A stretch of 64,000 nt of DNA from Collinsella vaginalis (GTDB taxonomy: Bacteria; Actinomycetota; Coriobacteriia; Coriobacteriales; Coriobacteriaceae). Location: the NCBI RefSeq assembly GCF_900176655.1, contig NZ_LT838842.1, forward strand, positions 345,270-409,269. Reading direction: 5' to 3'. The notes below the pieces were generated by a model, which ran no database searches, was not told the origin of the DNA, and was given only the letters and a program-made list of their open reading frames with translations. The position numbers and the translations under genes are program-made. Every line of letters starts with the position of its first letter. Position 1 is the stretch's first letter. Below, piece after piece: positions 1,709-55,235 of the stretch.

Positions 1709-1865
1709 TGCATTTCTTTGAGCTATGCATAAATTCTCGCCAAGATTGACGGAGCTATGAACCCGCCTGTTCATAGCTCCCAAAAATGCATCATGGTTGA
1801 CCTGGTGTTTTTATATCAGTGCTGAGAGGGCCGAGATTGTCCTATGCATAGCTCAAGAAAATGCA
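1709..1865. repeat. nested inverted repeats sharing GAGCTATG
   Basis: An outer pair of 23-bp arms (1709-1731 and 1843-1865, two mismatches) encloses a perfect 12-bp inverted repeat, GGAGCTATGAAC, at 1751-1762 and 1769-1780 with a 6-nt loop. All four arms carry GAGCTATG or its complement. Neither strand shows a T-run after the inner stem, so a simple terminator is unlikely. It could be a paired operator, a miniature mobile element or a structured RNA. Confidence 0.7.
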
Positions 1866-13054: not shown

Positions 13055-13231
13055 CTGGTCAAAATCCTCAACTTCTTGGGCAAATCTGACATGTCGTTGA
13101 GTGCAGCAGTCTCGATTTGCATAACTCAATATGGTCGTTTTGGCGCTGAAGGCCTAGCTTAGCATGAAAGAGGGTGGTAATTTATTTTATGACCCCCTAA
13201 ATTTGCCCAAGAAGTTGAGCGTTTTGACCAG
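13055..13231. repeat. 177-bp inverted-repeat element (type 2)
   Basis: The 31-bp arms (13055-13085 and 13201-13231) match at 29 positions and are separated by 115 bp. The outer ends read CTGGTCAAAA and its complement. The centre carries ATTTGCATAAC at 13115, 60 bp from the left end. The element at 36.4 kb has the same outer ends and the same centre at offset 59 but unrelated arm sequence. The arm core TTGAGCGTTTTGA recurs directly at 13273. Confidence 0.75.
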
Positions 13232-51786: not shown

Positions 51787-51926
51787 AAAACTTCCAGAAG
51801 TGCGGCGGTAAATTGAGATTTGGCCGATAGCCCGCCTTTCCGGGATCACCGTTCCTGAGGTTTCTTCGTCCGGTTTAGCGATCTACTCGAGCTTCCCGAA
51901 TTCACTACCGCACTTCTGGAAGTTTT
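51787..51926. repeat. inverted-repeat element, 140 bp
   Basis: The 19-bp perfect arms (AAAACTTCCAGAAGTGCGG at 51787-51805, complement at 51908-51926) extend to 28 bp with mismatches. The centre includes CCTGAGGTTTCTT and TCTACTCGAG, resembling the centre of the 123-bp elements before gyrA. Here the AAAAC end faces outward, in contrast to those. Confidence 0.75.
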
Positions 51927-54327: not shown

Positions 54328-54491
54328 GGTTTGGTGTGGGTTTTGCTTTCAGCACGATAAACTCCGTCGGTTTGGTGTGGGTTTTTGGGCCCCACTGAAG
54401 TAGCGTCAAATCGGATACCCCGTGTACCAGGTCTTTTCATGATCGACAAAGCCGGTCTACTTGGCGAGCCCGTGAAAACCCACACCAAACC
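54328..54491. repeat. type 1 element I with extra arm copy
   Basis: GGTTTGGTGTGGG occurs directly at 54328 and 54369 (41-bp period), each followed by TTTT, and inverted at 54479-54491. The 19-bp arms are perfect complements. The internal ACCAGGTCTTTT starts 41 bp inside the left arm. Confidence 0.85.
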
Positions 54492-54630
54492 GAGGAAGCG
54501 AGGGCACGAGAAGGCGGCGGCGCCCGCGCACGGCGATGATCAGGCCACCGGACTCGTAGCGATGCCGATGAAGCGAATGCCCCGTGTGTTCACCTGGCAG
54601 CCCCGTCCTCCCCCGCGAGCAAACCTCCTC

Positions 54631-54753
54631 AGTTTGGTACAGGTTTTGAGCGCATCGCCTTGTATCAATGAAACTCATCCCTGTTGTACCTGCGGGTTTA
54701 TGAATGAGAATAGGCAGTATACTTTTGAGACCGGTAAAAACCTGTACCAAACT
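54631..54753. repeat. type 1 element II
   Basis: Core AGTTTGGTACAGG at 54631 and its complement at 54741-54753; the full arms are about 27 bp and perfect, including CCTCCTC outside and TTTT inside. The centre has ACCTGCGGGTTT at the same 41-bp offset, and a TATACT near the right arm. Confidence 0.85.
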
Positions 54754-54957
54754 GAGGAGGTTTCACAGGCTGATGAGACTCTATATCCGGATGTGACGAA
54801 AGTTGCCCCCTCACCGCAAGATGCGAAGTGTGATATCGAACGAAACAGCAGAACTGTCAATCAGGTACCAGTGAGACGGTCGTAGGTGCTGGCCCACCGT
54901 GCCGCCATGTTGGAAAACATCAAGACAGATTGCCTGTGTGCATCAAGACAGATCGCC

Positions 54958-55162
54958 GGTTTGGCATGGGTTTTCGATTTGGTCATCGGATCCCCGTCGG
55001 TTCGGTGTGGGTTTCCGATTCGAGCGCCGCGTTCCTTTCGGATCGGTGTGGGTTTTTATCCACCTGTCTCGTAGAAGAGACATATCGCGAACCAAGACCG
55101 CAGGTACAGACGTTGCACCTTCGAGATGCTCAGCGGAATGTTCCCAAAACCCACACCGATCC
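54958..55162. repeat. type 1 element III with two extra arm copies
   Basis: Arm cores at 54958 (GGTTTGGCATGGG), 54999 (GGTTCGGTGTGGG) and 55040 (GGATCGGTGTGGG) are spaced exactly 41 bp; only the third pairs perfectly with the inverted copy at 55150-55162. The centre is in reverse orientation relative to I and II. Confidence 0.85.
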
Positions 55163-55201: not shown

Positions 55202-55235
55202 AACAGGGGTGGATCCCAGTTGATCCACCCCTGTT
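55202..55235 (-). terminator. terminator of gyrA
   Basis: A perfect 14-bp stem (AACAGGGGTGGATC / complement) with a CCAGTT loop, followed on the minus strand by TTTTCT. Confidence 0.85.

Follow-up and report, generated by a model that had tools for sequence, protein, structure and literature searches.

Scattered 121-bp palindromic elements of gut Coriobacteriaceae and their association with genes for DUF559/Vsr-like nucleases

Three inverted-repeat elements in the window (the whole 64,000-nucleotide stretch of DNA analyzed here) belong, by sequence comparison, to a large family of 121-bp DNA elements that lie scattered in the genomes of gut Coriobacteriaceae and seem not to have been described before. 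The arms of the scattered elements matched those of palindromes that flank nuclease genes, a match suggestive of a system of a new type in which an enzyme is paired with repeats. We consider it likely that the elements are dispersed satellites of such a nuclease-plus-palindrome system, with the nuclease reading the arms and acting at the core.

Geometry of the Elements in the Window

Elements I, II and III lie between two genes on the minus strand, which from their sequence and general knowledge we take to be a DedA-like gene and gyrA. The elements and their associated arm copies were located as follows:

54370–54490, plus strand: element I, inner arms 54370–54385 and 54475–54490 (GTTTGGTGTGGGTTTT, G type); its core has AGTAG at 54399–54403, a center ACCAG from 54426 and CTACT at 54457–54461
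54329–54344, plus strand: direct copy of the element I arm, lying 41 bp further out
54632–54752, plus strand: element II, arms GTTTGGTACAGGTTTT (A type)
55041–55161, minus strand: element III, arms GATCGGTGTGGGTTTT (diverged G type), minus-strand center ACCTGCGG
54959–55015, plus strand: two outer direct copies of the element III arm (54959–54974 and 55000–55015), at 41-bp steps

The preliminary description of these elements as real, perfectly paired and equally spaced was borne out, as the inner arms of each were complementary at 16/16 positions and the arm starts were exactly 105 bp apart. The length it had given, 123 bp, includes one extra base per side compared with the 121 bp used here. 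It had also pointed to extra same-direction arm copies at 41-bp steps outside elements I and III, which are the copies listed above, and to an ACC-G motif at a fixed position, which we located at +56 from one arm start in all three elements (on the minus strand in element III). The palindrome of element II reaches further out, to 54621–54763 (AAACCTCCTCA...).

A perfect 14-bp hairpin at 55202–55235, directly downstream of gyrA, is an ordinary terminator candidate.

Copies across the Genome

A search of the 2.16-Mb genome with the arm-pair pattern, the middle bases being left free, identified 20 pairs (20 + 20 matches) compared with none in the reversed control, and the pattern is therefore not due to chance. 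Relaxed scanning identified at least 30 copies with the fixed geometry noted previously, the arm spacing being 105 bp in 28/30 and 104 bp in the other two. Two arm types were dominant, GTTTGGTACAGG (A) and GTTTGGTGTGGG (G). The outer arm copies at 41 bp were found genome-wide, on the left of 25/28 elements and on the right of 24/28, versus 1/196 at control offsets; among 29 genomes they were limited to this one and its relative G029. The copies were intergenic, and the genes next to them were mixed housekeeping genes among which we found no operon logic. An exact 15-mer scan of viral contigs produced only scattered single matches, which we took as chance.

An earlier hint that a related element lies near 51.8 kb was correct, since a member with a third arm type was present there:

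51797–51916, minus strand: element IV, arms GAAGTGCGG..., palindrome 51787–51926, arm spacing 104 bp

The core of element IV is one base shorter, with AGTAG/GATAG at +29 from both arms, and about 14 dispersed relatives of this type were identified in the genome.

A Conserved Core and Variable Arms

The family has a conserved 63-bp core, AGTAG-N22-ACCTG-N26-CTACT, placed so that each arm has an AGTAG at +29 and one of them an ACCTG at +56. Searches for this core with one mismatch allowed produced matches in 29/67 Coriobacteriaceae genomes, the richest of which were far above the reversed control and some others at chance level. An exact scan of 84,980 species identified 34 stretches, every one from Coriobacteriaceae, in species that included Collinsella tanakaei, C. 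massiliensis, C. provencensis, C. stercoris and Enorma massiliensis. Similarly, the core matched in 8 genomes of a phylum sample of 396, all of them Coriobacteriaceae.

The 16-bp arms were wholly different between genomes, with up to three types per genome, yet left and right arms nearly always matched, in agreement with the compensated arm changes reported earlier for the three elements. Within one genome, non-orthologous copies had near-identical arms and diverged interiors, as would be expected if a factor acting in trans recognized the arm sequence. The likely factor is the nuclease described next, whose genes lie beyond the coordinates covered by the preliminary description.

Nuclease Genes Flanked by Palindromes

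Clustering of the proteins encoded near elements in many genomes identified one recurrent family that was unexplained by shared gene order. These proteins are 320–500 aa in length and carry, at the C terminus, a DUF559/Vsr-type nuclease domain of the PD-(D/E)XK class. Matches to the Pfam families DUF559 and MTES_1575 were weak; an HHalign profile–profile match to outgroup DUF559 proteins from other Actinobacteria had 97.7% probability (E 1.9e-12). Residues S277, E280, D325, E336, H343 and R355 were kept in 31/31 sequences, all of which carry the motif S..E / D / E..G..H / R. Based on profile homology and this motif, the linked protein is a DUF559/Vsr-like nuclease, with predicted activity. Close pairs had dN/dS values of 0.11–0.28, indicating purifying selection. 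A single-sequence AlphaFold model had a mean pLDDT of 34 and was not used. No viral homologues were found, and plasmids contained only distant Collinsella fragments.

The nuclease genes were associated with palindromes of the element architecture, which were present at 36/68 nuclease flanks compared with 12/322 control pieces, all drawn from the window's own genome (Fisher P = 6e-22). The palindromes were mostly 17–152 bp past the nuclease stop codon, and 9/34 loci had them on both sides. The arm sequence was particular to each nuclease gene, and many genomes also contained these arms as stand-alone intergenic copies, of which there were tens in the best-sampled genomes. Within a genome, flank arms and dispersed arms matched each other (permutation P = 5e-5), with agreement in the window's own genome (G000), G003, G029, G047 and G050 and a weaker one in G062; in G021, G033, G035 and G066 the nuclease arms differed from the sampled dispersed arms, dispersed elements being incompletely sampled in most genomes. 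Arm similarity also tracked protein similarity in the non-redundant set (Mantel r 0.25, P 0.008), a relationship that is partly phylogenetic.

A second-tier set of 20 nuclease genes was fetched after the hypothesis had been fixed, and 16/20 of these had flanking palindromes. Their arms were the same as dispersed arms of the same genome in G060 (15 bases), G002 (16), G004 (14) and G023 (16), and those of G022 also matched dispersed copies, by eye.

Among four more distant DUF559 genes considered in the window's own genome, 3/4 have palindromes of their own, two types of which also occur as dispersed copies. A search with three palindrome types, two from the distant DUF559 genes and that of the 51.8-kb element, identified dispersed copies for each. 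Two further palindromes in the window are putative satellites of other DUF559 genes:

1718–1856, minus strand: contig C19 type, arms TTGAGCTATGCATA, center TTGACCTGGTGTTT
13070–13216, no strand assigned: C2:121142 type, arms AACTTCTTGGGCAAAT complementary at 16/16 positions, few copies

About 20 relatives of the former were identified in the genome, and the latter is of the same type as the palindromes that flank the third DUF559 gene, at C2:121142. The C19-type nuclease gene (C19:44171–44956) carries an in-frame TGA. Downstream of the DUF559 gene at C2:774410 (L385) there are repeats of GAAAACCTACTTTGGAG in both directions at steps of about 140 bp, forming a looser array than the other palindromes.

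The G-type nuclease of this genome has a single lone arm left, at its 3' end, and the assembly, which is 92.6% complete, had no nuclease matching the A-type or 51.8-kb-type arms. Similarly, no nuclease of the clade with matching arms was found in G048, in which 18 elements were sampled. DUF559 genes at 30 loci outside the Coriobacteriaceae had only four weak palindromes, which suggests that the system is limited to this family.

Arm Turnover between Close Relatives

Comparison of orthologous loci of close relatives revealed that the core was kept and that both arms differed in concert:

L288 and L313: TTAGGGGACGG versus TTACGGTTCGG
L293 and L311: TTAGAAGACGG versus TTACGGTTCGG, one L293 arm being imperfect
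L299 and L296: TAGAAGACGG versus TTAGGGGACGG

L303 has a 240-bp stretch holding a full palindrome that is absent from L290. L299 has two elements versus one in L296, the latter resembling a fusion of both, and this 180-bp difference looks like recombination between tandem copies. No clean empty site was found among the close-relative comparisons. Separately, comparison of L270 with L178 revealed a 323-bp stretch (L270 814–1136) next to an orthologous element; G003 has it, G001 lacks it, and its geometry is not that of the elements.

A Proposed Model for Element Spread

Binding, cutting and copying by the nuclease are the presumed activities in the model that we propose. The nuclease would recognize the arms, over ~16–27 bp, as an oligomer with one copy per arm, and the fixed 105-bp spacing would hold the two arm-bound copies in register, this distance of ten helical turns being a fit for a complex that contacts both arms at once. 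The nuclease may then nick or cut the conserved core near the dyad TACCTGCGG, and this cleavage would set off either duplication of the element at other sites or conversion of one copy by another. The nuclease and the arms would coevolve, so that both arms of an element would have to change together. The stand-alone copies would ride along as non-autonomous passengers, in the relation that REPs have to RAYT transposases. We lean towards the broader view that these are mobile palindromic repeats of a categorically new class. Such repeats would be transposase-free; a DUF559/Vsr-like nuclease of the PD-(D/E)XK type, reading both arms of a pair at their fixed helical spacing, would spread the elements and keep them uniform, and a single genome would hold several arm specificities independent of one another.

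Proteins with DUF559 occur widely, and for the most part little is known of what they do. The model, if true, would provide the first genomic substrate for this large and little-understood family, and the natural nuclease–site pairs, with dozens of arm sequences, would allow direct tests of specificity. Dispersed bacterial repeats would also have a way of arising that needs no transposase, alongside REP/RAYT, in a lineage common in the human gut, and new sequence-specific nucleases with long sites might be obtained.

Alternative Explanations and Known Systems

The alternative that survives best, which we still judge to be unlikely, is that the palindromes are sites of benefit to the host, regulatory or for chromosome architecture (operators), and are recognized by a DNA-binding protein, that the DUF559 proteins are regulators using them and that mobility is incidental. 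Strict geometry despite diverged interiors would be expected of operators, as would intergenic placement, and elements were found at orthologous intergenic sites in different species; however, the neighboring genes are unrelated, occur in all orientations and have no fixed start-codon distance, and the presence of elements is patchy across the family and genus. Purifying selection on the nuclease protein is likewise in keeping with a regulator, but the catalytic residues are invariant, and copies amplify within genomes (G048 and G002).

It is very improbable that a known transposase (Y1/RAYT or IS), with its autonomous copy elsewhere, has the elements as its REPs or MITEs. They are dispersed and intergenic, and like REPs they have arms that pair and contain GTAG (PMC3733652), but the gene that they flank encodes a nuclease, and a Y1/RAYT transposase was rejected as the driver because there was no Y1 match in the window's own genome and the Y1/RAYT genes of relatives bear unrelated GGGGAC-type terminal repeats. 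Like bacterial MITEs and Correia elements, the elements are short, intergenic inverted repeats with no internal gene. Unlike them, they had no target-site duplication, as no offset had excess flank identity over 30 copies, their arms varied by genome around a conserved core, and no IS relative was seen. In the comparisons made, which among transposases covered the Y1 kind, the arms were shared with the nuclease-gene palindromes and matched no known transposon end. The elements are also not decayed copies of a MITE with identical arms, which had been raised as a possible explanation.

The closest parallel is the REPtron, composed of REPs and a RAYT/TnpA-REP tyrosine transposase (PMC3733652, PMC8266576), in which one nuclease-type gene is likewise flanked by palindromes, there are many stand-alone intergenic copies and several families per genome, the repeat contains a GTAG motif, and repeat and enzyme diversify together. 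The enzyme here, in contrast, is of the PD-(D/E)XK (DUF559/Vsr-like) kind where the REPtron has HUH/Y1; in place of a 20–40 bp hairpin, the repeat forms a dyad of 121 bp whose long arms are set apart around a fixed core; and there was no sign of single-strand hairpin recognition. Based on the lack of an HUH (Y1) transposase gene flanked by the repeats and of a 20–40 bp hairpin with GTAG at its foot (GTAG is internal, and no local hairpin was supported by covariation), we do not assign these elements to REPtrons, REPtron-like as their working may be.

Caulobacter VsrA, which contains DUF559 and is Vsr-like, has been proposed to cause double-strand breaks and is thought to act on mismatches (PMC12907096). 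It has the nuclease domain in common with the linked proteins, as judged by profile comparison and the catalytic motif. The EDxHD homing endonuclease I-Bth0305I (PDB 3r3p), which sits as a dimer on nearly 60 bp of target DNA (PMC3943268), has a similar catalytic domain by a weak sequence match (E 0.5). However, homing endonuclease genes lie within their cleavage site, whereas here there is no intron or intein, the gene adjoins intact palindromes on one or both sides, the site is uninterrupted, and there are tens of stand-alone sites. Among open-access papers we found no link of DUF559 to repeats and no report of such a system.

The preliminary description had favored structured RNA, or else a DNA site recognized by the shape of its hairpin, based on perfect arm complementarity with compensatory changes, and we now give this very little credence. 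In an alignment of 143 elements the arm columns paired at 70–100%, no other column pair covaried clearly, the 13-nt linkers paired mostly at chance level (about 0.4–0.55), and AGTAG/CTACT was nearly invariant without covariation. Unpaired linkers and covariation only in the arms indicate a sequence-specific DNA site and not an RNA fold; as judged from the alignment, the pattern is one of two-fold symmetry in DNA about a center that is itself asymmetric. In addition, lengths are fixed even in unconserved parts, near-identical arms occur at unrelated loci, and a single hairpin would not account for the direct copies at 41 bp. An Rfam scan had no match near the gathering score, consistent with the earlier statement that no named family fits, and a tRNA scan identified nothing.

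As a separate observation, many Collinsella-group genomes (L192–L208) contain RAYT-like Y1 genes flanked by GGGGAC-type terminal repeats, and in G048 one repeat of this type lies between two elements of the 121-bp family.
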